Source: Planctomycetales bacterium
Lineage (GTDB): Bacteria > Planctomycetota > SZUA-567
Direction: 5' to 3'
Assembly: GCA_025997475.1 (NCBI GenBank)
Contig: BNUQ01000008.1
Location: forward strand, 7,870-71,869
DNA length: 64,000 bases
In this document: positions 9,784-62,240 of the stretch, piece after piece
Layout of the letters: each line of letters begins with the position of its first letter
How positions within the stretch are numbered: the stretch's first letter is position 1
The notes under the pieces: model-generated
Seen by the model: the letters and a program-made list of their open reading frames with translations, nothing else
What the model was told of the DNA's origin: nothing
Database searches by the model: none
Program-made: the position numbers and the translations under genes

Positions 9784-9918
9784 AACCTGAAAATCTACTC
9801 CGCCTTCGTGAAGTTCGCGATGGCTTGTGAACTGCTACGGCAAGCGGAGTAATTATCAAAAATGGCGCGCGGCGAACTAAAAGTCAAACTCCGCCATTTT
9901 TAATTTGTAATTGCTCTA
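9784..9918. repeat. Heptad/core intergenic element
   Basis: Core AGCGGAGT...GGCGCGCGGCGAA...ACTCCGCC (9843-9895) followed by AATTTGT and AATTGCT heptads. A degenerate second core precedes it at 9784-9830. Confidence 0.6.
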
Positions 9919-9970
9919 ATTTTTTTTCGCCTCTTTTACCTTTTTTCGCGCCGAGCGGCGCGGGCGACTC

Positions 9971-9998
9971 TTGACCGCCACCGCGTTACTCATACATT
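9971..9998 (+). promoter_or_regulatory. Possible sigma-70 promoter for rpmF-plsX
   Basis: TTGACC at 9971-9976 and TACATT at 9993-9998 are separated by 16 bp and lie 45 bp upstream of the rpmF start. The -35 match is good and the -10 match moderate. Confidence 0.4.
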
Positions 9999-10042
9999 TT
10001 GCGCCGTTTTGTCCACCTCACAAATTAGGTTAGGAGAGAAAT

Positions 10043-10225
10043 ATGGCAGTTCCTCGGCTGAAAACCAGCAAAATGAAAAAGCGCCAACGTCGGAGTCATC
10101 ACGCGCTCGTCGCGCCCAATTTCGGCGAATGTCCGCGTTGCAACGCGCAAAAATTACCCCACTGCGTTTGTATGACCTGCGGCTACTACGGCGGCGAAAA
10201 GCGCGTCGAAGTCGAGGCGCACTGA
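10043..10225 (+). CDS. rpmF: 50S ribosomal protein L32
   Basis: This 60-residue protein is a component of the large ribosomal subunit. The N terminus MAVPRLKTSKMKKRQRRSHH is the diagnostic L32 start. The zinc-ribbon cysteines are present as CPRCNAQKLPHCVCMTCGYY. The ATG at 10043 follows AGGAG. As in many bacteria, rpmF directly precedes plsX and the fatty acid synthesis cluster, here after a 160-bp gap filled by a heptad repeat element. Confidence 0.98.
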   Translation: MAVPRLKTSKMKKRQRRSHHALVAPNFGECPRCNAQKLPHCVCMTCGYYGGEKRVEVEAH

Positions 10226-10228
10226 CAT

Positions 10229-10338
10229 CAATTAACAATTAAAAATTAACAATTGAAGGATAACTGTCAAAACGGCGCGAAGCGAATTTGAAAATCAAAC
10301 TCCGCCATTGTTAATTTTTAATTGTTAATTGTTAATTT
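10229..10338. repeat. Heptad/core intergenic element between rpmF and plsX
   Basis: Left arm ATTAACAATTAAAAATTAAC and right arm of AATTTTT/AATTGTT heptads match as inverse complements over about 23 nt. The core reads GGCGCGAAGCGAATTTG...CAAACTCCGCC. It can form one long hairpin in the transcript. Confidence 0.8.
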
Positions 10339-10387
10339 TTGAACGACCTGCGAGTATGAGCAACCGCGGCGAAACAATGAGGACGCG

Positions 10388-13328: not shown

Positions 13329-13666
13329 AAAAACAATTAAGAATGCAGAAGGCAGAATTAAGCATTGAGGTTACGCGATCTTGCTAATTTATTCCGCCAG
13401 TCGCCCCAACGGGGCGCAATATATTCGACCCGTTCGCTCTTCCTTTATTCGGCTAAAGTCGGTGATTTTTATCCGCTCTTGACCCCACGCTAAAGCGTGG
13501 GGCAAATGACCGCTAATCGCGCGAATTTGGTTGACCGCGTAACGTAAGTTAAGAATTGAAAATGGCGGAGTGATTATCAGAACGATGTTGCGCGAATCTG
13601 AAAGTCAAACTTCGAAATTCTTAATTCTGCATTTTTAATTCTTAATTATCTCAACGGGATTCACGA
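13329..13666. repeat. Composite repeat region between fabH and fabD
   Basis: No gene. From left to right it holds AATTAAG heptads, a GCCCCAACGGGGC palindrome near 13405, a CCCCACGCTAAAGCGTGGGG palindrome at 13483-13502, and a complete heptad/core element at 13549-13652 (GGCGGAGT core, then AATTCTT-type heptads). It looks like a heptad element that has accumulated other palindromes. Confidence 0.7.
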
Positions 13667-14596
13667 ATGAACATTAGCGGCTATTTCCTTTTTCCGGGGC
13701 AGGGCGCGCAAGTCGTCGGGATGGCGAAGGATTGTTTCGACACCGGCGGCTACGCGAAGAGTTTGTTTGAAGAAGCGAGCGACGTGCTCGGTTTTTCATT
13801 GGAAAAATTGGTTTTCGCCGGCGACGAGGCGGAATTGGCGAAAACTGAAAATTGCCAGCCGGCGTTGTTGGTCGCGTCGCTGGCGTATTTCGAAACCTTG
13901 CGCGAGCGGTGCAACGTCGAAGTAACCGGCGCGAGCGGTCATTCGCTCGGCGAATACACGGCGCTCGTGGCGCTCGGCGCGCTGGATTTCGCCGCCGCCG
14001 TGAAATTAGTCCGTTTGCGCGGCGAATTGATGGAAAAAGCGGCGGCGGGCAAGGGCGGAATGACGGCGATTATCGGTTTGGCGGACGAAACGGTCGAACA
14101 GATTTGCGCCGACGCGGGCGACGCGGGCGTGATTGTGGCGGCAAATTACAATTGTCCGAAACAATTGGTCGTGTCCGGCGAAATCGCGGCGCTCGAAAAA
14201 GCCGAAATGCTGGCGAAAAAAGCCGGCGCGAAAATCGTTACGCGCCTGAAAGTCGGCGGCGCGTTCCATTCGCCGTTGATGGAAGCGGCGCGGGCGTCCT
14301 TGGCGGACGCTTTGCGCGAAACGCAGGTCTGCGAAATCGGCAAGAAATTTATCAACAACGCCGACGCGAAGATTTTGCGCGAGCCGGAATCGCTCCGCGA
14401 ATCGCTGGCGCGACAGTTGGTCAGTCCGGTGCGCTGGACGGCGTCGATGCAACTCGCGAGTTCGACCGGCGACAAATTTTTCTACGAATGCGGACCGGGC
14501 AAAGTGTGTCAGGGCTTGATGAAACGCATCGACGCGACCTGCGACATCACCAGCGTCAACAGTATGGCGGCGATTGAAGACATTGAGCAACAGTGA
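13667..14596 (+). CDS. fabD: Malonyl-CoA:ACP transacylase
   Basis: FabD loads malonate from CoA onto acyl carrier protein. The 309-residue protein opens FLFPGQGAQVVGMAKD and has the nucleophile motif GHSLGEYTALVALG with Ser near residue 92. The catalytic His is in VGGAFHSPLMEAA. Length is normal. It sits between fabH and a VOC gene. The last codons (EDIEQQ) run into a GCAGTGG heptad repeat that follows the stop. Confidence 0.97.
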   Translation: MNISGYFLFPGQGAQVVGMAKDCFDTGGYAKSLFEEASDVLGFSLEKLVFAGDEAELAKTENCQPALLVASLAYFETLRERCNVEVTGASGHSLGEYTALVALGALDFAAAVKLVRLRGELMEKAAAGKGGMTAIIGLADETVEQICADAGDAGVIVAANYNCPKQLVVSGEIAALEKAEMLAKKAGAKIVTRLKVGGAFHSPLMEAARASLADALRETQVCEIGKKFINNADAKILREPESLRESLARQLVSPVRWTASMQLASSTGDKFFYECGPGKVCQGLMKRIDATCDITSVNSMAAIEDIEQQ

Positions 14597-14668
14597 GCAG
14601 TGGGCAGTGGGCAGTGAGGCGCTTGCGAATTTGAAAATAAAACTCCATAACTGCCAACTGCCAACTTA
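14588..14668. repeat. Heptad element, CAGTGGG variant
   Basis: Left arm CAGTGAG/CAGTGGG units, core GCGCTTGCGAATTTG...AAACTCC, right arm AACTGCC twice. Same plan as the other heptad elements but with a different 7-mer. Confidence 0.7.
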
Positions 14669-14684
14669 AACAAGGGAGCCGGCG

Positions 14685-15068: not shown

Positions 15069-15195
15069 TTACGAATTACAAATTAAAAATTACAAATTAA
15101 AAGTTATGGAATTGGGTTCTCAAATTTGCGAAACGCCATACGAAACGCAATTTTTTATCATCAATCCGCAATTTTTAATTTTTAATTGCTCTAAA
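15066..15195. repeat. Heptad/core element between VOC gene and fabG
   Basis: AATTACA/AATTAAA heptads on the left, a degenerate GCGAAAC-type core, and AATTTTT, AATTTTT, AATTGCT heptads on the right, ending about 14 bp before fabG. Confidence 0.7.
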
Positions 15196-16298: not shown

Positions 16299-16317
16299 TT
16301 CAGGGAATTTAGGAGTA

Positions 16318-16514: not shown

Positions 16515-16555
16515 GTGGATAAGTTCTTTTTTTTATTTAGAAGCGGGAAAAAACG

Positions 16556-18021: not shown

Positions 18022-19200
18022 ATGCTTTACGACTTCGATGAAATAATCGACCGGCGCGGGACGAATTCGCTGAAATATGATTTCGCCGCGGAGCGCGGGA
18101 TGCCGGCGGACGTGTTGCCGTTGTGGGTCGCCGATATGGATTTTCGCGCGCCGCGGGAGGTCTTGGACGCTTTGCGGGACGCGGCGGCGCACGGCATTTT
18201 CGGTTACAGCGACGATGGTGGTGGCGGCGGCGAAGCCGCGCGCGCGTGGTTCCGGCGCGAATTTGCCTACGACCCGCAACCGGAATGGACGGTCAAGTCG
18301 CCGGGCGTGGTTTTTGCCTTGGCGACGGCGGTGCGGGCGTTCACCGCGCCGAACGACGCTACGCTCATTCAGGAGCCGGTTTATTATCCTTTTTCCGGCG
18401 TCGTCACCGCCAACGGGCGGCGCGTCGTCAGTTCGCCGCTCGTCATTGACGCGGACGGTCGCCACCATATCGACTTCGACGATTTTGAGCGGCAAATTGT
18501 CGCGAACGACGTCAAATTATTTTTATTGTGCAGTCCGCACAATCCGGTCGGACGGGTGTGGACTTTGGCGGAATTGCAACAAATCGGCGACATCTGCCGG
18601 CGGCATCGGGTCGTCGTCGTCGCCGACGAAATTCATTGCGATTTTGTTTGGGACGAGAACCGGCACCGCGTTTTTTCGACGGTCGCGGATTTCGCCGATT
18701 TTACGGTCGTTTGCACGGCGCCGAGCAAAACGTTTAATCTCGCCGGTTTGCAAACGTCGAACATTTTTATCGCCGACGCCGGTTTGCGGCGGCGGTTTCA
18801 GCAGGCGCTCCGCGTTTCCGGTTATAGCCAGTTGAACCAACTCGGCTTGGTCGCGACGGAAAGCGCTTACCGGCACGGGCGCGACTGGCTGACGCAACTG
18901 CGAAAATATCTCGTCGCCAATCGCGATTTTATGCGCGATTTCTTGCGGCGCGAACTGCCGGTGGTAAAAATGACGCCGCTCGAAGGCACGTATTTGACGT
19001 GGGTCGATTGCCGTCCGCTCGGCTTCAGCCACCGCGAATTAAACGACCGCATTATTCAGCGCGGCAAATTGTGGTTGGACGACGGTTTGATTTTCGGCAA
19101 ATCCGGCGCGGGTTTTCAGCGCTTCAACATCGCCTGCCCCCGCGCCACGCTCGCCGAAGCGCTCAACCGTTTCGCGGGCGCGTTGGCGAAAGACAATTAA
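18022..19200 (+). CDS. PatB/MalY-type PLP aminotransferase (probable cystathionine beta-lyase)
   Basis: This fold-type I PLP enzyme resembles Bacillus PatB and E. coli MalY, which cleave cystathionine or cysteine C-S bonds. The start MLYDFDEIIDRRGTNSLKYD and LPLWVADMDF are hallmarks. The PLP lysine is in TAPSKTFNLAGLQTSN near residue 237, and CSPHNPVGRVW plus ADEIHCDFVW supply cofactor contacts. Length 392. I chose the ATG at 18022 (AAGGGA upstream) rather than an in-frame extension into the repeat. The gene is alone between the fab terminator and a repeat region. The family is firm, the exact substrate inferred. Confidence 0.92.
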   Translation: MLYDFDEIIDRRGTNSLKYDFAAERGMPADVLPLWVADMDFRAPREVLDALRDAAAHGIFGYSDDGGGGGEAARAWFRREFAYDPQPEWTVKSPGVVFALATAVRAFTAPNDATLIQEPVYYPFSGVVTANGRRVVSSPLVIDADGRHHIDFDDFERQIVANDVKLFLLCSPHNPVGRVWTLAELQQIGDICRRHRVVVVADEIHCDFVWDENRHRVFSTVADFADFTVVCTAPSKTFNLAGLQTSNIFIADAGLRRRFQQALRVSGYSQLNQLGLVATESAYRHGRDWLTQLRKYLVANRDFMRDFLRRELPVVKMTPLEGTYLTWVDCRPLGFSHRELNDRIIQRGKLWLDDGLIFGKSGAGFQRFNIACPRATLAEALNRFAGALAKDN

Positions 19201-19269
19201 AAATTAAGAATTAAAAACTGTGGAGTTTGATTTTCAAATTCGCTTCGCGCAATTTTTGCTAAATCGTTC

Positions 19270-19844: not shown

Positions 19845-20480
19845 ATGTCAAACCTCCTCTTTTATCTTTTGCTGTGTTACTTGGTCGGGTCGTTGCCGTT
19901 CGGCTTGTTCGCCGGTTTTTGCGCCGGCATCGACATTCGCCAAGCCGGTAGCGGCAATATCGGCTTCACCAACGTTTTGCGCGTTTGCGGCTGGAAATTC
20001 GGGTTGCCGGTGTTGTTTTTAGACGCGCTGAAAGGTTTTGTCGCGGCGTATTGGCTGGCGCATTGGTTTCTTGCCGGCGACTCGGCGTTGCCGTTTCACC
20101 AAGTTCTGGGCGGCTTGCTCGCGGTTGTCGGGCATAGTTTTCCGGTCTGGTTAAAATTTCACGGCGGCAAAGGCGTCGCGACCGGCGCGGGCGTGGCGGC
20201 GGCGATAATTCCGTTGCCGTTGTTGGTCGCGCTTATCGTTTGGCTGAGCGTGGTCGCATTGACGCGCTATGTGTCGCTCGGTTCGTTGGGCGCGGCGGTG
20301 GCGACCATCACGGCGCAAATCGTCTGCACGTGGGGCGACGTTTTGGCGCGGGAAAATTTACCGGCGCTGTTTCTCGCGGTGGCCATCGTCGCCATCGTCT
20401 TTCTGCGCCACCGCGCCAACATCGCCCGCTTGCGCCGCGGCACGGAAAATAAAATTTCTTTCGCGCGGAGCGGGCGGTGA
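19845..20480 (+). CDS. plsY: Acyl-phosphate:glycerol-3-phosphate acyltransferase PlsY
   Basis: PlsY is an inner-membrane enzyme that moves an acyl group from acyl-phosphate (made by PlsX) to glycerol-3-phosphate. The 211-residue protein has about five membrane segments and the three family motifs: GSLPFG with RQAGSGNIGFTNVLR, KFHGGKGVATGAG, and the late RHRANIARLRRGTE. No signal peptide. The C terminus runs close to a heptad element. Confidence 0.96.
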   Translation: MSNLLFYLLLCYLVGSLPFGLFAGFCAGIDIRQAGSGNIGFTNVLRVCGWKFGLPVLFLDALKGFVAAYWLAHWFLAGDSALPFHQVLGGLLAVVGHSFPVWLKFHGGKGVATGAGVAAAIIPLPLLVALIVWLSVVALTRYVSLGSLGAAVATITAQIVCTWGDVLARENLPALFLAVAIVAIVFLRHRANIARLRRGTENKISFARSGR

Positions 20481-20565
20481 AAAGTTGAAAGTTTAGCGTT
20501 GAAAGTTGAAATAACCGCGACCACAACTTTTAACGTCTCACTGCCCACTCCCTCCTCCAAAAAGG
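20480..20565. repeat. Heptad element between plsY and lgt
   Basis: GAAAGTT/GAGTTGA-type units followed by ACCGCGACCACAACTTTTAA and an AACGTCTCACTGCCC arm. Nearly the same centre (ACGCGACCACAACTTTCAAC) recurs at 28125-28150. Confidence 0.6.
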
Positions 20566-25202: not shown

Positions 25203-28097
25203 ATGGACACCTATCGTTTGGAAATTGCCGTCAAAGACGCGCACGACGAAGCGCTTGCCCGCGAATTGCGCGGGTTTAATTTGCCCGACCTCGCCGCCGT
25301 GCGCGAGATTCGCGTCTATACCGTCGCCGGCGATTTTTCGCTCGCCGACGCCGCCCGCGCCGCCCGCGAATTTTTCGCCGACGCCGTCGTCGATATTTTC
25401 GCCGTCAACGCCGCCGTGTTGGACGAGACCGGACAAACGATTCTCGAAATCCGTCGCAAAAACGGCGTGATGAATCCCGCCGAACAATCCATCAAACGCG
25501 GCTTGCAACAATTAGGACTGCGCCCCGACTGGGTGCGCCAAAGCCGCAAATATCTGCTGGCGTGGCATAACGCCGCGCCGGACTTGGCGCCGCTGAAAAA
25601 CGCCGTCGAAAAATTGCTCGCCAACGTCGTCATCGAAGAATTTTTTATCGGCGAAAACGCGCCGAGCCAAAAACCGGTCGCCGCGCCTTACGTGTTTAAG
25701 AAAGTGTCCGTGCCGCTCGCGGCGTTGAACGACGACGAATTAGTCGCGCTGTCGCGGCGGCAACAACTGTATATGTCGCTCGCCGAAATGAAGCGGGTGC
25801 AACAATACTTCGCCGAACTCGGACGCGACCCGACCGACATCGAACTTGAAACCGTCGCGCAAACGTGGAGCGAACACTGCGGGCATAAAACGTTCAAAGG
25901 GCTGATTAACTACACCGACGCGACGACGGGCGAAACGCGGGTCATCGACAATTTGCTGAAAAGCACCGTCGCCAGAGTAACGCGGGAATTGTCGCCGGAA
26001 TGGTGTTGGTCGGTGTTTGTCGATAACTCCGGCGTCATCGAATTTACGCCGGAGATGGGCGTCGGCTTCAAGGTCGAAACGCACAACCACCCGTCGGCAA
26101 TCGAACCCTACGGCGGCGCGGGCACGGGCATCGGCGGCTGTATCCGCGACCCGATGGGAACGGGACTCGGCGGGCAACCGATTCTCAACACCGACGTTTT
26201 TTGTTTCGGTCTGCCGGATTTGCCCGACGACCAAACGCCGCGCGGCTGTTTGCATCCGCGCCGGATTATGAACGGCGTCATCGCCGGCGTGCGCGATTAC
26301 GGCAACCGGATGGGCATCCCGACCGCCAACGGCGCGTTGTTGTTCGACGAACGCTACACCGGCAATCCGCTGGTTTTCTGCGGCAATCTCGCGCTCATTC
26401 CGAAAAAATACGCGACGCGGCGGCGACCGGTCGGCGGCGAACTTGTCATCGTCGTCGGCGGCGGCACCGGACGCGACGGAATTCACGGCGCGACGTTTAG
26501 TTCGGTCGAACTCGACGAAAATTCCGAAATGGTGTCCTCCGGCGCGGTGCAAATCGGCAACCCGATAGAGCAGAAAAAAGTCCTCGACTTTTTGCTCCGC
26601 GCCCGCGACGCCGAATTGTATTCCGCCCTGACCGACTGCGGCGCCGGCGGGCTGTCGTCGGCGGTCGGCGAAATGGGCGAAGAGTGCGGCGTCGAAGTCG
26701 ATTTAGATAAAGCGCCGCTGAAATACGCCGGTCTGAATTACACCGAAATTTGGATTTCCGAAGCGCAAGAGCGAATGGTCATCTCCGCCAATGAGAAAAA
26801 TTTGGCGGCGCTTCAAAAATTGGCGGACGAGGAAAATGTAACGCTCGCGGTCATCGGCAAATTCCGCGCCGATAAAAAATTGCGGTTGCGTTATCAGGGA
26901 AAGTCCGTCGGCGAACTGACGATGGATTTTCTGCACGACGGCTGTCCGCGCCGGACGTTGACGGCGAAATGGGAAGCGCCGGCTTTGTCCGAGCCGGTTC
27001 TGCCGGACGCCGTCAACTACGGCGCCGCGCTGAAAAAAATCCTCGCCGCGTGGAATGTTTGCTCGAAAGAGTGGGTTATCCGGCAATACGACCACGAAGT
27101 GCAGGGCGCGTCGGTCATCAAACCGCTCGGCGGCGCGGCGCACGATTCGCCGAACGATGCGGCGGTTATCGCGCCGCTGTTGGGGCAGACGACGGGGTTG
27201 GCGGTGGCGAACGGCATCAATCCGAAGTATTCCGATATTGACCCGTATTGGATGGCGGCGAACGCGATTGACGAGGCGCTCCGCAACCTCGTCGCCGTCG
27301 GCGGGTCGCTCGACCGGTGCGCGTTGCTCGACAATTTTTGCTGGGGCAATTGCGACAAGCCCGACCGCCTCGCGGGCTTGGTGCGGGCGGCGCAGGCGTG
27401 TTACGACATCGCGAAAATTTACGGCGTGCCGTTTGTGTCGGGCAAGGATTCGCTGAACAACGAATACGGCGTCGGCGAGCGGACGATTTGCATTCCGGGA
27501 ACGTTGCTGATTAGCGCGATGGCGGTTATGCCGGATTGCCGCCGCGCGGTGTCGGCGGACCTGAAAAACGGCGGCAATTATTTGTATATCGTCGGCGACA
27601 CCCGCAACGAACTCGGCGGTAGTCATTTTTACGCGACGCTCGGCGTCATCGGCAAAAATGTGCCGCTCGTCAACGCCGCGGCGAACAAGAAAGTTTTCAC
27701 CGCGCTGGCGGCGGCTTCGACGGCGGGCTTGTGCAAGAGTATGCACGATTGCGCGGAAGGCGGCTTGGCGGTGGCGGCGGCGGAAATGGCGTTCGGCGGC
27801 GGGTTGGGCGCGACGCTCGACTTATCGAATTTACCGCCGGTTCTCGCCGGCGAATTGACGACGGCGCAGGCGTTGTTCAGCGAAAGTTCGGGGCGGCTGT
27901 TGGTCGAAGTTACGCACGCCGACGCTTACACTTTCGAGCAACTAATGAAGCGGCACGGCGCTTCCTGCGCGCATATCGGCGGCGCGACGCTGGCGCCGGA
28001 GTTGCGCGTTTATGACGCGAAAAAGAATTTAGTGCTGAGCGAAAACATCGGCGACCTCAAAGCCGCGTGGCAGGAAAAGAGCAGAGTTGAGAGTTGA
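25203..28097 (+). CDS. purL: Phosphoribosylformylglycinamidine synthase, PurS-PurL fusion
   Basis: This enzyme makes FGAM from FGAR, ATP and ammonia in purine synthesis. At 964 residues it is longer than small PurL (about 740) and shorter than large PurL (about 1300). Residues 1-80 (YRLEIAVKDAHDEALARELR onward) fit a PurS-like module, a second small module follows to about 170, and the PurM-like synthase repeats span the rest: TWSEHCGHKTFKG, VETHNHPSAIEPYGGAGTG, GIGGCIRD and DCAEGGLAVAAAEMAFGGG. There is no C-terminal glutaminase, so a separate PurQ is needed; it is not in the window. The ATG follows AAAGGA. The last codons (SRVES and TGA) are encoded by heptad repeat DNA. Confidence 0.95.
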   Translation: MDTYRLEIAVKDAHDEALARELRGFNLPDLAAVREIRVYTVAGDFSLADAARAAREFFADAVVDIFAVNAAVLDETGQTILEIRRKNGVMNPAEQSIKRGLQQLGLRPDWVRQSRKYLLAWHNAAPDLAPLKNAVEKLLANVVIEEFFIGENAPSQKPVAAPYVFKKVSVPLAALNDDELVALSRRQQLYMSLAEMKRVQQYFAELGRDPTDIELETVAQTWSEHCGHKTFKGLINYTDATTGETRVIDNLLKSTVARVTRELSPEWCWSVFVDNSGVIEFTPEMGVGFKVETHNHPSAIEPYGGAGTGIGGCIRDPMGTGLGGQPILNTDVFCFGLPDLPDDQTPRGCLHPRRIMNGVIAGVRDYGNRMGIPTANGALLFDERYTGNPLVFCGNLALIPKKYATRRRPVGGELVIVVGGGTGRDGIHGATFSSVELDENSEMVSSGAVQIGNPIEQKKVLDFLLRARDAELYSALTDCGAGGLSSAVGEMGEECGVEVDLDKAPLKYAGLNYTEIWISEAQERMVISANEKNLAALQKLADEENVTLAVIGKFRADKKLRLRYQGKSVGELTMDFLHDGCPRRTLTAKWEAPALSEPVLPDAVNYGAALKKILAAWNVCSKEWVIRQYDHEVQGASVIKPLGGAAHDSPNDAAVIAPLLGQTTGLAVANGINPKYSDIDPYWMAANAIDEALRNLVAVGGSLDRCALLDNFCWGNCDKPDRLAGLVRAAQACYDIAKIYGVPFVSGKDSLNNEYGVGERTICIPGTLLISAMAVMPDCRRAVSADLKNGGNYLYIVGDTRNELGGSHFYATLGVIGKNVPLVNAAANKKVFTALAAASTAGLCKSMHDCAEGGLAVAAAEMAFGGGLGATLDLSNLPPVLAGELTTAQALFSESSGRLLVEVTHADAYTFEQLMKRHGASCAHIGGATLAPELRVYDAKKNLVLSENIGDLKAAWQEKSRVES

Positions 28098-28165
28098 GAG
28101 TTAAAAGTTTAGAGTTGAGAGTTGAAATAACGCGACCACAACTTTCAACTTTCAACTCCAAAGAA
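28080..28165. repeat. Heptad element overlapping the purL 3' end
   Basis: GAGTTGA/GAGTTAA units start inside the last purL codons; ACGCGACCAC centre; AACTTTCAACTTTCAACTCC arm. Confidence 0.75.
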
Positions 28166-29300: not shown

Positions 29301-29397
29301 GCAATTCACAATTAACAATTTACAATTAACAATTGTTGTCGAACAACTCTGTCCTCAAAATTGTTAATTGTGAATTGTTAATGGTTAATTGATTTAA
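29301..29397. repeat. Heptad element between RadC-like and flavin reductase genes
   Basis: CAATTCACAATTAACAATTT on the left, TTGTCGAACAACTCTG centre, AATTGTT/AATTGTG units on the right. Confidence 0.75.
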
Positions 29398-30027: not shown

Positions 30028-30122
30028 GAGTTTAGAGTTGAGCAAAGGTTGCGCTTCGCGCATGATTAAAATGACTCCACCGCTAAACTCTCAACTTTCA
30101 ACTTTCAACTTTCAACTCTGAA
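30012..30122. repeat. Heptad/core element between convergent genes
   Basis: GAGAGTTAAGAGTTGAGAG on the left, GGTTGCGCTTCGCGCATG core, CTCCACCGC, then AACTCTC and AACTTTC heptads. Both flanking genes, flavin reductase and PSP1, end inside it. Confidence 0.8.
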
Positions 30123-38090: not shown

Positions 38091-38095
38091 CGAGC

Positions 38096-42114: not shown

Positions 42115-42216
42115 AGTTGAGAGTTTAGCGTTAAGAGTTTAGCGGTGGAGTTATTTTTTAATAATGCGCGAAGCGCAACCTCTGCTCAACTCTTAACTCT
42201 TAACTCTCAACTCTAA
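42114..42216. repeat. Heptad/core element between the tandem permeases
   Basis: GAGTTGAGAGTTTAGCG left, GCGGTGGAGT and ATGCGCGAAGCGCAACCTC core, AACTCTTAACTCTTAACTCT right, then a good AAGGAG. Confidence 0.85.
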
Positions 42217-46381: not shown

Positions 46382-46555
46382 ATGATTTTTGATGAGGACG
46401 AAATTCACCGGATAAGAGTGAAAATCGCCGAATGTCGAGCCAAGATGACGCCGGAGGAAGTTCGCGCCGACCGGCAGCGAAGCGCGGAAAAGGTGCGAAG
46501 AACGATGGCGGAAATCGGAAATAAAAAATTAGGCGGCGCCACAATCGGAAGTTGA
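46382..46555 (+). CDS. 57-residue unknown protein with strong ribosome-binding site
   Basis: The ORF reads MIFDEDEIHRIRVKIAECRA to ...GGATIGS. AGGAGG at 46368-46373 is 8 bp before the ATG, the best ribosome-binding site in the region. The product is charged and helical (MTPEEVRADRQRSAEKVRR), with no known domain or membrane segment. It lies between element A and a heptad element, with no co-directional neighbour. Either a real small protein or cargo of the repeat; coding is moderately supported. Confidence 0.55.
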   Translation: MIFDEDEIHRIRVKIAECRAKMTPEEVRADRQRSAEKVRRTMAEIGNKKLGGATIGS

Positions 46556-46636
46556 ACGTTTAGCGGTAGAGGCGTTTTACGATGCGCGAAGCGCAACCTC
46601 CGCTCAACGCTAAACTTTCAACTTTTAACTTTCACC
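46556..46636. repeat. Heptad/core element after the 57-codon ORF
   Basis: GTTGAACGTTTAGCGGTAGAG left, ATGCGCGAAGCGCAACCTCC core, AACGCTAAACTTTCAACTTT right. Confidence 0.8.
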
Positions 46637-47078: not shown

Positions 47079-47188
47079 GTTCGGAGTTGAGAGTTGAGAG
47101 TTGAGAGTTCAGAGTTTAGAGTTTAGCAGTGGAATTATTTTACAATGCGCGAAGCGCAACCTTTACTCAACTCTCAACTCTGAACTTT
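47079..47188. repeat. Heptad/core element between dapB and ybeY
   Basis: GAGTTGAGAGTTGAGAGTTG left, GCAGTGGAATTATTTTAC and ATGCGCGAAGCGCAACC core, ACTCAACTCTCAACTCTG right. Confidence 0.85.
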
Positions 47189-47993
47189 AAGAAAGCACGT
47201 CCCGCATCGTGTAAAGCCCCGGTTTTTTGCCCGCTAAATAGACCGCCGCGCGCAACGCTCCCGCCGCGAACACATCGCGATTTTGGGCGCGGTGCGTTAA
47301 TTCCAACCGTTCAAACTCACTGCCGAAATAAACCGTGTGCTCGCCGACCACCGACCCCAACCGCAGGGCGGTAATGCCGATTTCTCGCGCCGGACGCGCG
47401 CCGGTGGCGCCGACCCGTTCGAGCCGCACGTCTTGACGATAATCGCGGTCGGTCGCGGCGCAGATTTCTTTGGCTAACGCCAGCGCCGTGCCGCTGGGCG
47501 CGTCGATTTTGCGGTTGTGATGCGTTTCGGAAATTTCGACATTGAAATCGTCGCCTAACGCCGCCGCCATTTCCGCCGCGACTTTCAACATCAAATTCAC
47601 GCCGAGCGAATAATTTGCCGCGTGGATTACCGGCACGAATTGCGCCGCTTCAAAGATGAGTTGCTCTTGTTCGGCGGTCAGCCCCGTCGTGCCGACGACT
47701 AACGCGCATTTTTTTTTGACGGCTTCGCCGACGCGAACGACCGTCGAACTTGGCGTCGAAAAATCTAACAAGACCTCGGCTTCCTGCGAAAATTCGGTCT
47801 CCAACGGCAGGTCGATTTCCGGCACGAACGATTTGATGGAAATGTTGCTTAACGGATTGCCCGCCGAATCAATCGCGCCGACGACCTCGACGCTGGGCAT
47901 CAACGCCGCCAACGCCAACAGCCGCCGCCCCATTCGTCCGGCGGCGCCGTTGACCACTATGCGGATTTTCGACGCGGTTTCCGGTGCCGACAT
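47187..47993 (-). CDS. dapB: 4-hydroxy-tetrahydrodipicolinate reductase
   Basis: DapB makes tetrahydrodipicolinate in lysine and diaminopimelate synthesis, consistent with a peptidoglycan wall. The 268-residue protein has the NAD(P) loop VNGAAGRMGRRLL and the catalytic HHNRKIDAPSGTALALA block near 165. The C-terminal AVYLAGKKPGLYTMRDVL is typical. No other dap gene is adjacent. Confidence 0.96.
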   Translation of the reverse strand: MSAPETASKIRIVVNGAAGRMGRRLLALAALMPSVEVVGAIDSAGNPLSNISIKSFVPEIDLPLETEFSQEAEVLLDFSTPSSTVVRVGEAVKKKCALVVGTTGLTAEQEQLIFEAAQFVPVIHAANYSLGVNLMLKVAAEMAAALGDDFNVEISETHHNRKIDAPSGTALALAKEICAATDRDYRQDVRLERVGATGARPAREIGITALRLGSVVGEHTVYFGSEFERLELTHRAQNRDVFAAGALRAAVYLAGKKPGLYTMRDVLS

Positions 47994-48013: not shown

Positions 48014-48166
<153 letters not shown>

Positions 48167-48169
48167 AAC

Positions 48170-50644
48170 TTACCCCAACTTCCGCGCCACCTCTTCGACT
48201 TCATACGCTTCGATAATGTCGCCCTGCCGCAAGTCGTCGTAGCCGGACATTTTGATGCCGCACTCGAAGCCGGCGCGGACTTCGCGCGCGTCGTCCTTGA
48301 AGCGTTTCAGCGATTCTAACACGTTGTCGTAAATCACCACTTGGTCGCGAATCAGGCGCAGACGGCATTTGCGGTTGATACTGCCGTCGGTTACGTAACA
48401 ACCGGCAATCGTGCCGATTTTGCTGGCGCGGAAAACTTCGCGCACTTCCGCGTGTCCCGCCACCACGTCCCGCGCCACTTTCGGCAACAAGCCCTCCATC
48501 GCCGCTTTCATATCTTCAATCAGGCGGTAAATGACGTGATAGATTTTCAGTTGCACGTTCAGCGTCATCGCTTGGAATTTCGCGATGCTGTCCGCGACCA
48601 CGTGGAAGCCGATGACTAACGCGTCGCTCGCGTCGGCGAGAATCACGTCGGCTTGCGAAATGCCGCCCACGCCGGAGTGAATTACTTTGATGCCCACTTC
48701 GCTCGTCGCGAGGTCGGCGAACGTTTTTTGCAAGACCTCCAACGACCCCGACACGTCCGCTTTGATAATCACGTTCAAATCGCGCCGCTGACCTTCGCGG
48801 CTTAAATGTTCCATCAAATTTTCCAACGACACGTGCTGGCGCCGCGTGCTGGCTAAAACCTGCGCCCGCGCCCGCGCTTCGCGCTCTTCCGACAATTTCC
48901 GCGCCTTGATGAGGTCGCCGACGACATAAACCTTGTCGCCGACTTCCGGCACGTTGTTCAGCCCGACCACCGAGACCGCGTCGCCCGGCTCGCCGGTTTC
49001 GCACAGCGCGCCGCTCCAATCATACATCAGCCGGACTTTGCCGTGTCCGTTGCCGGTGATGAGCGCGTCGCCGCGGTGCAAGGTGCCGTCGCTAATCAAC
49101 ACCGTCGCCACCGCGCCGCGGTTGTCGGTCATTTTCGATTCGACCACATAGCCGACCGCCGGTCGCGACGGGTCGGCGTCAAGTTCCAACATTTCCGCTT
49201 CGAGCAAAATCCGCTCCAACAGCGTGTCGATGCCCTCGCCGGTTTTGGCGGAGACCTGCACAATGCCGACTTTGCCGCCCCAGTCCTCCGGCAACAGTTC
49301 AAGTTGCGTCGCGACTTCCTGCTTGACTTTTTCGGGATTGGCGTTCGGCACGTCGCATTTGTTGACCGCCACGACAATCGGCACGCCCGCGCTTTTCGCG
49401 TGCGCCGCCGCTTCTTTGGTTTGCGGCATCACGCCGTCGTCCGCCGCCACCACCAACACGACCACGTCGGTCAAATTCGCGCCGCGCGCCCGCATCTGCG
49501 TGAACGCCTCGTGCCCCGGCGTGTCCAAAAACGTGATGCGCTGACCGTTTCTCTCGACGGTGTAGGCGCCGATGTGCTGGGTAATGCCGCCGTGTTCGGA
49601 GTCCACGACGCGCGCGGAGCGGATTTTGTCGAGCAACGAGGTTTTGCCGTGGTCAACGTGTCCCATAAAGGTAACGATGGGCGGACGCTGTTGCCGCGCG
49701 GCTTCGGCGCTGTCCAATTCGTCTTGTTCAAAGCGTTCCGCGAATTCGTCTTCGAGCGAAACCTCCGCCGCCCATTCATACGGAATTTTGAAATTCTCGG
49801 CAATCGTTTCGATGGTGCTTTCGTCGAGGATGTCGTTGGCGGTAACCATTTCGCCTTCGCGCATCAGGTAGCCGATGATTTCGTTGAGTTTCACGCCGAG
49901 CGCCTCCGACAATTCGCGGATGGACATCACGGATTGCAGTTGCGCCATAAAATTTTCGTCGCGGGCAATCGGCGCGCTACGCTGGTTGCGGCGGCGGCTT
50001 TTGCGCCGGTTTTGCTGGCGGTGGCGTTGTTGCTGTTGTTGCGGTTGCGCCCGCCGCGCCGGCGCGGCGGAAGCGCGCAAACTGCGCGTGTATTCGCCCT
50101 CGTTCGCCGAAAACAGCGCCGGCAGTTCGGGGCGCACGAGCGTCTTGAAGTCGGCGCGTTTGTGTTTGAAACCCGCCGCGTTGATTTCGTTGGTTTTGGC
50201 TTCGTCCTGCGTAATCGTCACGGTGCCTAATTTCGGCGGTATGTAAACCGAGCGCGGCGGCGTAACCGGCATCGACTTTGGACGCGGCGGCACGGGCGAT
50301 TTTTTCGGCGGGACGATTTTGGCGGTCGGTTTGACGGGCGCGGCTTTCGGCGGCGTTTTCGCCTCTTTGTCGGCGACCGGACGCGGGGCGTTCTTTTTCG
50401 GTTTTTTGACGATGGCGATGCGCTTTTCGTTCGCCGCTTTGGTTTGGGCGGCGACGGCGGCGCTTTGCTCGGCGACTTTTTTGGCGATGGCGGCGCGATT
50501 CTGCGTCGCCCAGTTTTCAACGTCGTCGCCGACCACCGCCAAACTGTTCTTGATTTCAAAGCCGGCTTCGCGCGCCGCTTCTAAGAATTGGTTAAGGTCG
50601 TTCTTTTCGATGCCAATTTGCGTGGCTAATTCAAACAGTCGCAT
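48170..50644 (-). CDS. infB: Translation initiation factor IF-2
   Basis: IF-2 is the GTPase that brings initiator tRNA to the 30S subunit. The start at 50644 gives MRLFELATQIGIEKNDLNQF, an IF2_N module, followed by a Lys/Pro-rich linker (residues about 60-160) and a second IF2_N (MSIRELSEALGVKLNEII near 245). G motifs: [23 protein letters not shown]. The C-terminal C1/C2 domains end VARKLG. Length 824 is normal. rbfA, nusA and truB, the usual neighbours, are not adjacent. Confidence 0.97.
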   Translation of the reverse strand: MRLFELATQIGIEKNDLNQFLEAAREAGFEIKNSLAVVGDDVENWATQNRAAIAKKVAEQSAAVAAQTKAANEKRIAIVKKPKKNAPRPVADKEAKTPPKAAPVKPTAKIVPPKKSPVPPRPKSMPVTPPRSVYIPPKLGTVTITQDEAKTNEINAAGFKHKRADFKTLVRPELPALFSANEGEYTRSLRASAAPARRAQPQQQQQRHRQQNRRKSRRRNQRSAPIARDENFMAQLQSVMSIRELSEALGVKLNEIIGYLMREGEMVTANDILDESTIETIAENFKIPYEWAAEVSLEDEFAERFEQDELDSAEAARQQRPPIVTFMGHVDHGKTSLLDKIRSARVVDSEHGGITQHIGAYTVERNGQRITFLDTPGHEAFTQMRARGANLTDVVVLVVAADDGVMPQTKEAAAHAKSAGVPIVVAVNKCDVPNANPEKVKQEVATQLELLPEDWGGKVGIVQVSAKTGEGIDTLLERILLEAEMLELDADPSRPAVGYVVESKMTDNRGAVATVLISDGTLHRGDALITGNGHGKVRLMYDWSGALCETGEPGDAVSVVGLNNVPEVGDKVYVVGDLIKARKLSEEREARARAQVLASTRRQHVSLENLMEHLSREGQRRDLNVIIKADVSGSLEVLQKTFADLATSEVGIKVIHSGVGGISQADVILADASDALVIGFHVVADSIAKFQAMTLNVQLKIYHVIYRLIEDMKAAMEGLLPKVARDVVAGHAEVREVFRASKIGTIAGCYVTDGSINRKCRLRLIRDQVVIYDNVLESLKRFKDDAREVRAGFECGIKMSGYDDLRQGDIIEAYEVEEVARKLG

Positions 50645-50787
50645 TAAAACACTCTCCGCTAAACAAGAAATCCCGCCGAAATAATTTTCCGCCCGATGAC
50701 GGAAACGCGGCATATTACTCCGCGCCGCCGTCGCCGCAATTGTTATGTTGGCGGGAATGTTGGACGGGGCGGGGTGGACGCTTGAAA

Positions 50788-50925
50788 GTTGAAAGTTAAA
50801 AGTTAAAAGTTGCGAAGAGCAAAGTTGAAAGTTGAAAGTTAAAAGTTGAGAAAAAGAGCAATCGTCGATTAACCGGCGCGGTTTTCTTAACTTTCAACTT
50901 TCAACTTTTAACTTTTAACCTTGCC
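50788..50925. repeat. Heptad element between infB and the TPR gene
   Basis: GAAAGTTGAAAGTTAAAAGT left, repeated once more, then GGCGCGGTTTTC and AACTTTC/AACTTTT heptads right. In a divergent gap, so it overlaps both promoters. Confidence 0.8.
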
Positions 50926-51771: not shown

Positions 51772-51864
<93 letters not shown>

Positions 51865-52823: not shown

Positions 52824-52933
52824 ACACGTTCGCCGAGGCGGAGTCGTTGATGACAAATTCGCGTAACATCAGTTAAAAGTTAAAAGTTGAAGTTAAGAGT
52901 TGAAAGTTAAAAAAAGCGCTCGGCGCGGCAAAT

Positions 52934-53162
52934 TAAATTCCCCTCTACGGATAGTCCGCCCCAGTCCTCCGTAGAGAGGAATTACCCCGCTCAAACTTCT
53001 TATTTCAACTTTCAACTTTCAACTCTCAACTCTGCTCTTTTAAATTCCCCTCTACGGATAGTCCGCCCCAGTCCTCCGTAGAGAGGAATTACCCCGCTTA
53101 AACTTCTTATTTCAACTTTCAACTTTCAACTTTCAACTTTCAACTCTCAACTCTCAACTCTG
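52934..53162. repeat. Two 107-bp direct repeats with a CCTCTACGGA hairpin
   Basis: TAAATTCCCCTCTACGGATA begins at 52934 and again at 53041. Each unit has CCTCTACGGA/TCCGTAGAGG as a 10-bp stem around a CCGCCCCAG loop, then AACTTTC and AACTCTC heptads. Confidence 0.85.
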
Positions 53163-58264: not shown

Positions 58265-58391
58265 AAAAATTAAGAATGCAGAATTAAGAATTAAAAATGG
58301 TGGAGTAATTGGGTAAAAATAGCGCTTCGCGAATCTGAAAATAAAACCGACTTCTAAATTCTTAATTCTGCATTCTTAATTCTTAATTGAT
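58265..58391. repeat. Heptad/core element between corA and the ApbE-like gene
   Basis: AATTAAGAATGCAGAATTAA left, GGTGGAGT and AGCGCTTCGCGAATCTG core, AATTCTT, AATTCTG, CATTCTT, AATTCTT right. The ApbE-like gene ends inside it. Confidence 0.82.
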
Positions 58392-59252: not shown

Positions 59253-60258
59253 AGCGTCTCTTTTGTAAGCGTCCGGCGACGCCCGCGAGTAACAGCGCCG
59301 CGCTGAAAAAACAGCCGAATAATTGCCAATTGACGACCGCCGCGAGCCACGCCACGGCGAGGGCGTTAAGTAAAAAACGCCGGATATTTATTTGTCCCGC
59401 CGTGCCGACGGCGGCGCACCAGACCGGCGACGTCAGCGCGAGCGCCAAAAACCCGTTGCCGAGAAACGCGGGCACCGGTGCCGCCGCGAGCGAAATGGTC
59501 GCGAGATTTTCCGCCAAACCGTCCGTGAGCAAGGCGGATAATTGGCTTATCGGCGTCGCACCGTCGCCGATGAGCGCCGCCGCCGCGCCGCCGAGCGCGC
59601 TAAAAAAATACGCGACCCACAGCCGTCCGCGCGGCACGAACGCGCGGGCTTTTTTCGCGTCGTCGCCGAGCGCCCGCAACTGCCAACCCGCCACCGAAGA
59701 GCGCAAGAAAAAATACGTCAACAACAACATCGCCAATAAAACGACAAAACGGGTCGCGGCGGACAAATCCATCGGCGAGGTCTGCGCGAGCGACGGCGGT
59801 AAAAATTCGCCGATGCTTGCCGCGAATTGGACGAGCGCGTCGCCCCGCTTCAAGTCGATAAACGGCGGCAGAACGGCGGCGATTAAGCCGACGAGCGCGG
59901 TGATGAGCAAATTCGGCAAGCGCAGGACGCAATGTCCGAGCGTGTTGAGGGTCGCCGCCGCGAGCGCGAGAACGAACAGCGCCGCGACCGTTGCCCAGAG
60001 CGGATGGGGCGCGGCGCAAAAATAATGCGCCAAGAGAAAAACGCCGCCGACGCTGAAATCAAACCGTCCCGTCGTCGCGAGCGGCGCTTGTCCGACCGTC
60101 GCCGCGATTAATGCCGCCGTTAAAAGCGACATTGCCGTAAGCGTCGCCGCGTTGGGCGGCGCGGGGTTGCCGAAGACCGCGGGAAAAATTCCGAGATAAC
60201 CGACTGCCGCCGCCGCGAGCGCGACTATCCATAAAAGCGCCGTGAAGTATTTAGGCAT
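59245..60258 (-). CDS. RbsC-like ABC transporter permease, without ATPase or binding protein
   Basis: The 337-residue protein has 8-10 membrane helices and resembles the BPD_transp_2 (RbsC/LivH) permease family: GRFDFSVGGVFLLAH matches the GGIDLSVGS block and RALGDDAKKARAFVPRGRLW the coupling region. The first ten residues look like a signal anchor. No ATPase or periplasmic binding-protein gene is adjacent; the only partner is the ApbE-like gene that overlaps its 3' end. Either a degenerate import system or a module with another function. Family assignment is moderate. Confidence 0.65.
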   Translation of the reverse strand: MPKYFTALLWIVALAAAAVGYLGIFPAVFGNPAPPNAATLTAMSLLTAALIAATVGQAPLATTGRFDFSVGGVFLLAHYFCAAPHPLWATVAALFVLALAAATLNTLGHCVLRLPNLLITALVGLIAAVLPPFIDLKRGDALVQFAASIGEFLPPSLAQTSPMDLSAATRFVVLLAMLLLTYFFLRSSVAGWQLRALGDDAKKARAFVPRGRLWVAYFFSALGGAAAALIGDGATPISQLSALLTDGLAENLATISLAAAPVPAFLGNGFLALALTSPVWCAAVGTAGQINIRRFLLNALAVAWLAAVVNWQLFGCFFSAALLLAGVAGRLQKRRYA

Positions 60259-60478
60259 AGCGTCCTGTTTTTTTGGGTCGATATTTTGGGGGAGAAAATT
60301 CGGCGCGCAGTATAGACGAACGGCGCGGCGGTTTGTAGTGGCGTCCTGCCGCTTTTATCGCGCGTCGCGGACGCTACCGCTTGTCCGCCCGCGCCACGCT
60401 AATATATTCCACATTTTTAGCGCGACGTAATTTATCAAAAATTTCCGCATTCGTAATTCGTAAATTACAGGAGGCGTT

Positions 60479-61777
60479 ATGCAAAAAGCCAAAACCCGCG
60501 TCGCGGTCGTCGGCGTCGGCACGGTCGGCTCCGGCGTCGTGGAAACATTGTTGCAACGGGGCGAATTGTTGCGGCGGCGCGGCGGGGTCGCCGTCGAACT
60601 TGCCGCCGTCGTTGACCGCGACCGCGAAAAAGCCGTCGCCGCCGGCGCGCCGGAAAATTTGATTTTCGACGATTTCAACGCGGTCGTCGCCCGTCCCGAC
60701 ATCGACATCGTCGTCGAACTCGTCGGCGGCACCGGCGTCGCCGAAAAAATCATTGCCTCGGCATTGGATAACGGCAAAGCCGTCGTTACCGCGAACAAGG
60801 CGCTCCTTGCCGAAAAAGGGTTAAAACTCTTCGCCGCCGCGCGCGAACACCACGCGCCGTTGGCGTTTGAGGCGGCGGTCGGCGGCGGGATTCCGTGCAT
60901 TCAGGCGATTCGCGACGGGCTGATTAGCAATAATTTTTCCTCGTGCATCGGCATCCTCAACGGGACTTGCAATTACATTTTGACCGAAATGATTACCAAA
61001 GGGCAGGATTACGACGGCGCGCTAAAACAGGCGCAGGCGCTCGGCTTCGCCGAAGCCAATCCGCGCACCGATGTCGAGGGTTTTGACACCGGACACAAGT
61101 TGGCGATTTTGTCGGCGCTGGGCTTTGAAACGTGGATTGATTTTGACCGCTTGCCGATTACCGGCATCGCCGGCATTTCCGCGACGGACATCGCCTGCAC
61201 CAAAGAAATGGGCTACGTCATCAAATTGCTCGCGGTCAGCAAAGTGATGGACGGCAAATTATTTTTATCGGTGCATCCGGGTTTGTTGAACGAGTGGCAC
61301 GTGCTCGCGGGCGTGCACGGTTCGTTGAACGCGATTTCGCTGTTCGGCGATTTGGTGCAGGAAGCGGTGTTCATCGGGCGCGGCGCGGGGAAAAATCCGA
61401 CCGCCAGCGCGGTCGTCGCCGACATCATCAGCACCGCGAAAATTCTCGGCGCGGGTTTGGATAATTTGTCGTGGTTGCCGCCGGAAAAACCGCACTTTGC
61501 ATTGGGGGCGCTCGCGGATTACACGACGCGCTATTATCTGCGCTTCACCGTCGCCGATCACGTCGGCGTGTTGGCGCAAATCGCCGCGTCGCTCAGCGAA
61601 CACCGCGTCGGCATCGCCAGCGTCGTCCAACACGAGCGCAACGACGAGCGCGACAGCGCGATGATTATCGCAATTACCGACATCGCGCGCGAAGGCGACG
61701 TGCAAAACGCGCTGACGGAAATCGACCGGCAGGAATTCTCCCGCGCCAAAACGTCGCTGTTCAGGATTGAAGGGTAG
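60479..61777 (+). CDS. hom: Homoserine dehydrogenase
   Basis: Hom reduces aspartate semialdehyde to homoserine on the way to threonine, methionine and isoleucine. The 432-residue protein has the NAD(P) loop VGVGTVGSGVVETL, VTANKALLAEKG, AAVGGGIPCIQAIRDGL, and the catalytic GILNGTCNYILTEM and GFAEANPRTDVEGFDTGHKL. A C-terminal ACT domain (YLRFTVADHVGVLAQIAASL) suggests feedback control. AGGAGG precedes the ATG. No thrB or thrC is adjacent; sstT, a threonine/serine transporter, is the next rightward gene. Confidence 0.97.
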   Translation: MQKAKTRVAVVGVGTVGSGVVETLLQRGELLRRRGGVAVELAAVVDRDREKAVAAGAPENLIFDDFNAVVARPDIDIVVELVGGTGVAEKIIASALDNGKAVVTANKALLAEKGLKLFAAAREHHAPLAFEAAVGGGIPCIQAIRDGLISNNFSSCIGILNGTCNYILTEMITKGQDYDGALKQAQALGFAEANPRTDVEGFDTGHKLAILSALGFETWIDFDRLPITGIAGISATDIACTKEMGYVIKLLAVSKVMDGKLFLSVHPGLLNEWHVLAGVHGSLNAISLFGDLVQEAVFIGRGAGKNPTASAVVADIISTAKILGAGLDNLSWLPPEKPHFALGALADYTTRYYLRFTVADHVGVLAQIAASLSEHRVGIASVVQHERNDERDSAMIIAITDIAREGDVQNALTEIDRQEFSRAKTSLFRIEG

Positions 61778-61920
61778 GGCGGGGCGCAATTAACAATTAA
61801 CAATTAACAATTAAAAATTAAATTGTTTCCAAACTTGATTGAGACCTGTTTCTCGCAGGCGGCATAAAGGATACGGAGAAACGGGGAGATGCTCTATTCA
61901 AACGCCCCGCGTTCAAAGTG

Positions 61921-62106
61921 GTTGCTCTATTCAATTGCCACGCCTTTTAAGGCGTGGAGAACGGGCAAAGCGGAAAAAGGGCTTTAGCCCAAAATAAAAA
62001 AATGCGGTCTAAATCCAATCGGCTTTAGCCGAATGATTGTTTGGGCTAAAGCCCATTTTTAGAGAGGCACTCACCACGCCCTAAAGGGCGTGGCAATTTG
62101 GGAAGC
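61921..62106. repeat. GGGCTTTAGCCC palindromic element, copy 2
   Basis: CTCTATTCAATTGCCACGCC left, CACGCCCTAAAGGGCGTGGC right, with GGGCTTTAGCCC, GGCTTTAGCCGAATG and GGGCTAAAGCCC inside. Same plan as 24996-25136 but longer. Confidence 0.75.
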
Positions 62107-62166
62107 GCACGAACCTTCGCTTCGCTCGGTTTGAATAGAGCCACCGCTACTGAAATTTTGATAATT

Positions 62167-62240
62167 ACTCCGCTAACAATTCTTAATTCTTAATTCTTAA
62201 TTGTTAATTGTTAATTGTTAATTGTTAATTGTTAATTTTC
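62167..62240. repeat. Nine-unit heptad run upstream of sstT
   Basis: AATTCTT three times then AATTGTT about five times and AATTTTC, ending 7 bp before the sstT start. Only the right arm of a heptad element is present here. Confidence 0.85.

Follow-up and report, generated by a model that had tools for sequence, protein, structure and literature searches.

Intergenic hairpins with tandem-heptamer arms in a planctomycete genus: cores inverted in place and arms that change together between sister species

The DNA analysed here, a stretch of 64,000 nucleotides (hereafter the window; G000:C8:7870-71869), comes from the metagenome-assembled genome (MAG) of a Planctomycetales bacterium (G000; 2.39 Mb in 169 contigs, 84.6% complete) whose intergenic gaps carry tandem arrays of a degenerate heptamer, AAYTNYY. 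The elements that these arrays build are small dispersed intergenic hairpins, in which two tandem-heptamer arms surround a short core. Comparison of orthologous gaps with those of G001, a sister species within the same genus, revealed that element positions are mostly conserved between the two species and that core inversion in place occurs, and wherever the arms of one of 18 loci with AACT-class arms had switched unit type, both had done so. We propose, with a probability of roughly 0.6, that the elements evolve by replication slippage combined with polymerase template switching between the arms. Slippage would lengthen and shorten the arm arrays in 7-nt steps, and the polymerase would swap template between the two arms during replication, rewriting one arm from the other and sometimes inverting the core; exchange between loci or a mutational bias would act in addition to this local copying. 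For the most part the elements would renew themselves as near-neutral hairpins between genes, tolerated at gene ends, where the upstream gene often takes its stop codon from an arm. In the parts of the literature compared, template switching between inverted repeats is described as homogenising arms and inverting spacers (PMC8604942) and as creating and maintaining stems (PMC8794818).

Paired heptamer arrays and their core families

The initial annotation, made from the window alone, had described tandem AAYTNYY arms in more than 20 gaps, a description that held up: the window contains 35 runs of at least two units in 26 clusters, compared with a mean of 0.65 and a maximum of 3 runs in 20 Markov-1 random sequences, and all six sites that it named (10229-10338, 29301-29397, 38096-38190, 42114-42216, 47079-47188 and 58265-58391) bear such arms. 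The check for period 7 that it had proposed agreed: of the arrays with a period of 4-13, period 7 accounts for 164 of 173 in 461 kb of G000 and for 267 of 290 in 771 kb of G001. The consensus RRNARTT (equivalent to AAYTNYY), which 2.7% of all heptamers fit, describes 136 of the 164 period-7 arrays in G000 and 175 of the 267 in G001. The units of G000 are AATTGTT, AACTTTC, AACTCTC and similar, and not G-rich quadruplex-forming ones; across the whole of the G000 genome GCGCGAAGCGCA has exactly 109 occurrences, against 2 for a reversed control.

Arrays are paired with a fixed polarity. Among neighbouring runs no more than 150 nt apart, 66 pairs were minus-plus, 2 plus-minus and 15 on the same strand, which corresponds to an arrangement RRNARTT...core...AAYTNYY, with AAYTNYY pointing outward on each arm. 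When 392 planctomycete genomes were scanned with a strict pair pattern, 27 matches were found in G000 and 44 in G001 (one element can match repeatedly), the pattern was absent from the other 390 genomes drawn, and the opposite-polarity control gave 0 matches.

A single core present in both orientations had been described for the middle of the element. Both orientations do occur, but the single core was wrong, as the cores fall into two families that differ in their arms, and further elements have just a short linker between the arms. Family A combines AACTYTN arms with a core GTGGAGTT...GCGCGAAGCGCAACC, in its fuller form GTGGAGTT-TATTTTTAAGA-YGCGCGAAGCGCAACC, and family B combines AATTNTT arms with a palindromic core GGAGT...GCGAAGCG...ACTCC, in its fuller form GGAGTTAATTATCAAAATT-CGCGAAGCG-...ATCAAACTCC; a few family-A-type cores bear AATT arms. 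GCGAAGC is an unusually stable DNA mini-hairpin. A covariance model, the test that the initial annotation had put forward, was built for family A from 34 hand-picked elements of both species and matched at least 116 places in G000 and at least 116 in G001 (each count being the number scored, hence a lower bound), with no match in 39 other relatives. Across the sampled relatives, family A is thus limited to a single genus. Within the window, the two covariance models gave 21 and 24 matches at E <=0.01, both strands counted and partly to the same elements, and Rfam 15 had no match at gathering score there.

Core inversion and joint arm change between sister species

Orthologous gaps were analysed for 137 paired elements in sampled G000 stretches (labelled by L-numbers, followed by positions inside the stretch). 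Eighty of these were without an anchor in the sampled G001 stretches and 3 were non-collinear, leaving 31 for which a paired element was called in each of the two species and 23 for which none was called in G001. The flanks that anchor the 31 pairs are 88-98% identical, and the mapped regions of the two genomes are collinear in blocks. Among the 31 pairs, the core aligns better without flipping in 18 and after flipping in 8, with 5 undecidable. When the orthologous core was required to beat all 154 other G001 cores, 15 best-match cores remained, 12 of them oriented alike in the two species and 3 inverted in place, with 0 of the 154 other cores as good; an earlier run with fewer G001 stretches had yielded 11 such cores, 9 in the same orientation and 2 inverted. 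The clearest inversion, at L013:9577, is identical at 47 of 50 positions once flipped, with outer arms and both flanks in place. A fourth inverted core, L017:13904, comes from the earlier run (0 of 98 other cores as good) and was not compared with the 154 cores, its anchors lying within a tandem duplication; in G000 this duplication (L017:13904-14227) comprises the element and adjoining sequence, and each of its copies has the opposite orientation to the one in G001. Three of the 15 best-match cores and one more therefore show one of the two signatures of template switching, inversion of the spacer between arms and flanks that stay in place.

In the three aligned inversions the exchange points appear to lie inside the variable arms and not at one fixed site. 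This speaks against a dedicated site-specific recombinase that inverts the core as a genetic switch, a reading under which inversion in place would be expected; since both core orientations are also common (26:36 relative to co-directional genes) in a family of more than 100 copies, we consider it highly improbable.

Slippage would be expected to leave 7-nt indels and homogeneous blocks within an arm. Arm length changes between the species come in 7-nt steps, and homogeneous unit blocks lie inside the arm at 48080-48173. The two arms also changed composition together. The unit vocabulary differs between the species, with AACTC* to AACTT* units at 443:345 in G000 and 764:148 in G001, and we scored a switch as a shift of at least 0.5 in the AACTC share among the 18 of 31 pairs in which all four arms have 2 or more AACT units. 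Both arms had switched at 6 of these loci, one arm at 0 and neither at 12, and the left and right shifts were correlated at 0.87, a value reached in 1 of 20000 permutations. At two of the six co-switched loci (L006:1474 and L013:15538) the core is the best match at the orthologous site, so that these are not simple replacements by another element. Joint switching and cores that flip in place both favour the copying process between arms that had been suggested from the window alone. We read these data as arms undergoing occasional wholesale rewriting, and not constant proof-reading of the stem.

Several results weigh against template switching and slippage as the explanation, or limit it. At 4 of the 6 co-switched loci the core is not the best-match ortholog, so whole-element replacement is possible there, and the best core from another locus often scores near the ortholog (43 vs 46 for window 42112). 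All six co-switches run in the same direction, G000 being T-rich and G001 C-rich, so that local copying alone is insufficient and conversion between loci or biased mutation is also needed; with a single species pair, moreover, the changes cannot be polarised, and both genomes are fragmented MAGs. Arm homogenisation, the second signature of template switching, is apparent in joint switching (6 vs 0 of 18), yet a concerted-evolution test on 22 loci showed no significant excess: within-locus similarity surpassed the same-side similarity between species at 9 loci and fell short of it at 13 (P 0.85), and was above cross-arm similarity in 12 vs 8 (P 0.11). The claim of the initial annotation that arms of one locus match each other stood in that their similarity of 0.839 exceeds the 0.594 obtained by permutation over all loci (reached in 0 of 20000), but it largely reflects family membership, since permutation inside arm class already gave 0.803 (10 of 20000 reaching the observed score); arm class thus accounts for most of the within-locus likeness in one species. 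Left and right arm lengths are uncorrelated (rho 0.05, P 0.54; 0.12, P 0.25), and equal arm length as a mark of copying was thus not found; their changes between species are only weakly correlated (0.35, P 0.056).

Homologous recombination or gene conversion, either RecA-dependent or following hairpin cleavage by SbcCD and acting also between loci, would likewise flip cores and homogenise arms, and would in addition explain the species-wide drift in unit vocabulary seen in the contrast between 443:345 and 764:148. The A-type cores with AATT arms fit this account in that they imply that arms and cores recombine, and SbcD is above cut-off only in G000 (G000:C18:19954-20757, 188 bits) and G001 (G001:C1:5305-6096, 187 bits) of 41 relatives, 23 others having weak sub-cut-off matches. 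However, arms of ~30 nt are, on general knowledge, short for RecA-dependent exchange, and the presence of SbcD represents one lineage's event (n=1) in a comparison in which many genomes are incomplete MAGs. We regard recombination as a possible explanation, though somewhat unlikely as the principal one. Loss of SbcCD as a cause of hairpin richness was rejected, as, among the 41 genomes, SbcD above cut-off is confined to the two hairpin-rich ones, G000 and G001.

The 23 collinear gaps in which no G001 element had been called bear on a further alternative, whole-element turnover. Here non-autonomous mobile units, resembling miniature inverted-repeat transposable elements or REPINs, would use a cellular Y1 transposase, and flipped cores and switched arms would mark favoured sites at which an element had newly inserted, or replaced the old one, in the opposite orientation. 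By eye, 14 of the 23 gaps hold heptamer-armed versions (some with nested repeats or another linker), which the paired-arm finder had thus missed and which, including both copies of L017:13904, were left out of the core-orientation and arm-switch counts. Of the rest, 2 contain heptamers of the GGGAAAA type and 7 contain unrelated DNA or repeats of other kinds, which favours turnover, and a genus-restricted burst of similar cores and the Y1_Tnp genes (two in G000, one in G001) point the same way. On the other side, no clean empty site was seen among these 23 gaps, the 80 unanchored and 3 non-collinear elements lying outside this set, and inverted cores keep locus-specific sequence. Y1_Tnp is found in 25 of 41 genomes and does not track heptamer load, G024 having 22 Y1 matches and 0 three-unit AAYTNYY matches, so that a Y1 transposase was rejected as a simple cause. 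Turnover as the general explanation appears unlikely to us. The Y1 (IS200-like) genes of G000, at L001 1369-1854 and L002 1501-1839, are flanked by palindromes of other families, for example CCCCACGCTTTAGCGTGGGG and GCCCTGCAAGGGC, which are candidates for REP-type families.

Gene context, arm pairing and the elements of the window

Counted inside versus between genes, as the initial annotation had also proposed, 183 clusters fell into 112 co-directional, 26 divergent and 24 convergent gaps, while 15 lay within open reading frames (ORFs) of 120 aa or more and 6 at the edge of a stretch; ORFs were called by a greedy pick of the longest frames, which makes gene boundaries approximate. Run midpoints lie within ORFs of at least 100 aa in 45 of 266 cases, although such ORFs cover 82% of the DNA. 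A gene end is no more than 15 nt away for 72 of the 112 clusters in co-directional gaps, and where the 3' end of a gene faces an arm, the stop codon falls inside that arm in 53 of 108 cases. Stops in all three frames are present in 118 of 274 arms read inward and 56 of 274 read outward. Selection for stop codons in the arms was rejected, as the arm stop density of 0.109 is not above that of random AAYTNYY arrays (0.122); the stops therefore follow from the motif.

This placement, with 112 of the 162 intergenic clusters in co-directional gaps and most of those near a gene end, would suit a hairpin kept by selection for an RNA function such as mRNA processing, 3'-end protection or attenuation inside operons, as would the pairing of 88-90% of arm-helix cells in the family A alignments. 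However, co-directional gaps make up 178 of all 270 gaps of at least 30 nt (45 being divergent and 47 convergent), a similar share, so that the clusters are not strongly enriched there. Selection for structure had been one of the readings offered in the initial annotation, and the alignments favour it only slightly: covariation is modestly above shuffles (0.090 vs 0.067, sd 0.009, reached in 4 of 500; 0.097 vs 0.076, sd 0.008, reached in 8 of 500), but pairs changed on both sides are not above shuffles (6 vs 6.8 and 5 vs 5.3) and the unit-junction base is unpaired in 22 and 19 of 34 family A elements. Together with a core orientation that is not fixed and the lack of an Rfam match at gathering score in the window, this makes selection for RNA function quite unlikely in our judgement. 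Apparently compensatory changes in such stems, by the same caution, need not signify selection on structure.

Within the window, where bit scores refer to matches to the family A or family B covariance models, family A elements lie on the plus strand at 42112..42215 (83.7 bits), where the sister species has the core flipped in place, at 46547..46633 (58.5 bits), and at 47082..47189 (81.8 bits), where the sister gap contains GGGAAAA heptamers; a further plus-strand family A match (40688..40763, 59.2 bits) overlaps the predicted start of the downstream ORF. On the minus strand, 38095..38185 (95.1 bits) has kept its orientation in the sister species, and 30012..30127 (82.9 bits) lies between convergent genes, both ORF stops falling within its arms, with another repeat nested in the sister copy. 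The plus-strand element at 48016..48173 (50.3 bits) has arms with TTTC, CTC and CTA blocks and a GTGGAGTT half-core.

Family B is represented on the plus strand by 10227..10340 (84 bits), with AATTGTT/AATTTTT arms, upstream of an ORF that resembles plsX by its sequence; its core aligns better inverted in the sister species, yet is not the best-match ortholog. Two further plus-strand elements are 13544..13650 (55.9 bits), whose sister gap holds unrelated DNA, and 36693..36801 (82.3 bits), with a 53-nt core that the sister species carries unchanged in sequence and orientation, and a family B-like element lies at 35197..35293 (28.6 bits, plus strand). The minus strand carries 15071..15190 (50.2 bits) and 19192..19268 (36.4 bits), the latter with a degraded right arm. 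For the family B element at 58265..58391, with AATTCTT/AATTCTGC arms, no strand was assigned: CGAAGCG is on the minus strand, but the model scores higher on the plus strand (50.2 bits, against 41.4 on the minus strand).

Among the other elements, those at 20480..20552 (AACTTTC arms, with the stop of the upstream ORF at the arm), 28082..28160 (AACTTTC/AACTCTC arms, with that stop within the arm) and 50784..50916 (AACTTTC/AACTTTT arms, 34.7 bits) have short linkers, in the last case containing AACCGGCGCGGTT, and 29301..29397 (40.2 bits) has AACAATT arms around a divergent linker; none of these four was given a strand. At 14589..14662 (plus strand) lies an AACTGCC-armed element whose sister copy is one 7-nt unit shorter. 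A 12-heptamer array at 51773..51856 (plus strand), AACTTTC then AACTCTC, adjoins another palindrome cluster, and several AACTTTC/AACTCTC arrays are interleaved with other repeats at 52875..53155 (no strand). A composite repeat region is flanked by a left-type AACAATT array at 61784..61826 (minus strand) and closed by a right-type AATTCTT/AATTGTT array at 62174..62243 (plus strand). The window also has dispersed inverted repeats of CACAGAG and ACGAATT words at 16299-16555 and 43548-43812, with a period of ~9-10 by eye, and the first of these sites is nearly empty in the sister species (229 vs 10 nt).

The sister gaps contain repeats of other kinds. GGGAAAA-type arrays occupy those orthologous to window 47082-47189, L007:13032-13124 and L016:15286, giving different heptamer vocabularies at the same sites. 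In two cases, L030 ~14443-14827 (orthologous to L006:3917-4061) and L046 5290-5838 (orthologous to L012:9833-9951), a larger repeat with GTTACGCGGTC...CGCGTA ends is nested in a heptamer-armed element and has TTTTTAA on both sides, which resembles a target duplication. At L050 ~3521-3795 (orthologous to L009:6548-6663) the sister arms enclose a stretch that, judged by eye, resembles the 3' portion of a protein-coding gene, its end running into the right arm.

Heptamer repeats beyond the genus and comparison with known systems

Runs of three AAYTNYY units, counted on both strands, number 1254 in G000, 939 in G001, 141 in G016 (from another family) and 48 in G039, versus at most 7 in each of the other 37 of 41 genomes and none in 32 of those 37. 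Differences between genomes were used here because AAYTNYY arrays also match when read backwards, which invalidates a reversed pattern as a null. In 20 sampled G016 and G039 stretches, neighbouring runs no more than 200 nt apart were minus-plus in 8 cases, plus-plus in 5 and plus-minus in 1, and several G016 elements have the same polarity around an unrelated core ending in AATGAAGG...CCTTCATT. A scan of named species genomes for AACAATT pairs, a pattern that has polarity built in and is thus no polarity test, and which may omit the window's own species, gave 54 stretches, 34 from the sister species and 20 from other records of several phyla. By record name these cover Planctomycetota, Bacteroidota groups, Oscillospiraceae, Clostridium, Chloroflexi, cyanobacteria, Victivallales and Rickettsiales, and the cores of different records look unrelated by eye. 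Two Oscillospiraceae elements (L105:4389-4477 and L109:4531-4605, sample label Hs463) have a strong hairpin core GACGAGGGTTACGG...CCGCAACCCTCGTC with AACAATT/AACAGTT arms. Viral contigs gave 2 stretches with the pair and 0 with opposite polarity, too few to use.

It is conceivable, but in our opinion very improbable, that heptamer-armed hairpins across phyla form one recurrent system with a shared inward grammar of about RNNARTY, lineage-specific cores and a dedicated activity that writes or rewrites the arms in seven-base steps; were such an activity real, the unit vocabulary of a species would drift as a whole. The units TAACTGA, GGGAATC and GTGATTA fit RNNARTY and two Nostoc units do not, and because 10% of all heptamers fit, the grammar is only suggestive. 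Small dispersed repeats embedded in tandem heptamers were reportedly described in Nostoc by Elhai et al. in 2008; those elements are said to be 21-27 nt long and confined to one cyanobacterial group, and their likeness to the G000 elements is by description only.

The initial annotation knew of no named family with this design, which stands only in part, as convergent pairs of degenerate heptamer arrays have already been reported in Xanthomonas (PMC4692102). There, according to the sections compared, (GGGANTN)n arrays consist of 2-26 degenerate 7-nt units, are dispersed and mostly intergenic near the 3' end of the upstream ORF, and form 70 close convergent pairs in one genome and 75 in another (Rehm et al. 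2015, PMC4692102). They thus have in common with G000 the degenerate 7-nt tandem units, the mostly intergenic location and the fixed inverted pairing, and GGGAATC fits the RRNARTY version of the G000/G001 consensus. In contrast to the G000 units, those of Xanthomonas are G-rich and are discussed as quadruplexes, and the parts of that account compared here describe no core family, core inversion or joint arm change (PMC4692102).

TAACTGA direct repeats, known from Beggiatoaceae, Cyanobacteria and Bacteroidetes and interpreted as possible translational regulator sites (MacGregor 2015, PMC4679880), are, in the parts of that study compared, likewise intergenic heptamers, patchy over phyla, with mostly 7-nt indels between close strains and a mechanism that is also unexplained. 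They differ in forming 169 direct-repeat sets vs one indirect repeat in the main genome, and so are not paired arms (PMC4679880). The SPADE survey found heptamers to be the most abundant intergenic tandem repeats in prokaryotes, without a clear clue to function, and addresses neither mechanism nor paired arms in the parts compared (PMC6344855). Published template-switch repeats show, in the portions compared, the arm homogenisation and spacer inversion that we sought in G000 and G001, but concern short inverted repeats in yeast genes, and RNA genes, and not a bacterial tandem-heptamer family (PMC8604942, PMC8794818).

The elements resemble REP/REPIN sequences, so far as the papers were compared, in being dispersed, extragenic, high-copy hairpins in a genome with Y1 transposases (PMC3116915, PMC3733652). 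They differ in their tandem-heptamer arms of variable length and in a core with GGAG and GCGAAGCG in place of a GTAG or CGTC tag (PMC3733652), and, unlike in the REP/REPIN-RAYT system, no element-specific transposase was identified for the heptamer hairpins. An exact-sequence search of open-licence papers for six 18-mers gave no match, and the open-licence literature searched contained no account of paired heptamer elements that combine defined core families with cores inverted in place and arms that switch jointly.

With hundreds of heptamer arrays in one genus, and the sequence of a sister species to compare, the heptamer question becomes tractable. If slippage and template switching are indeed responsible, hairpin-driven copying rather than regulation would explain much of the heptamer-repeat class, and the arms would be natural recorders of template switching. 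Taken together, paired convergent heptamers, the abundance of heptamers and the cross-phylum distribution of TAACTGA are already known, and the additions made here are the core families, core inversion in place and joint arm switching.

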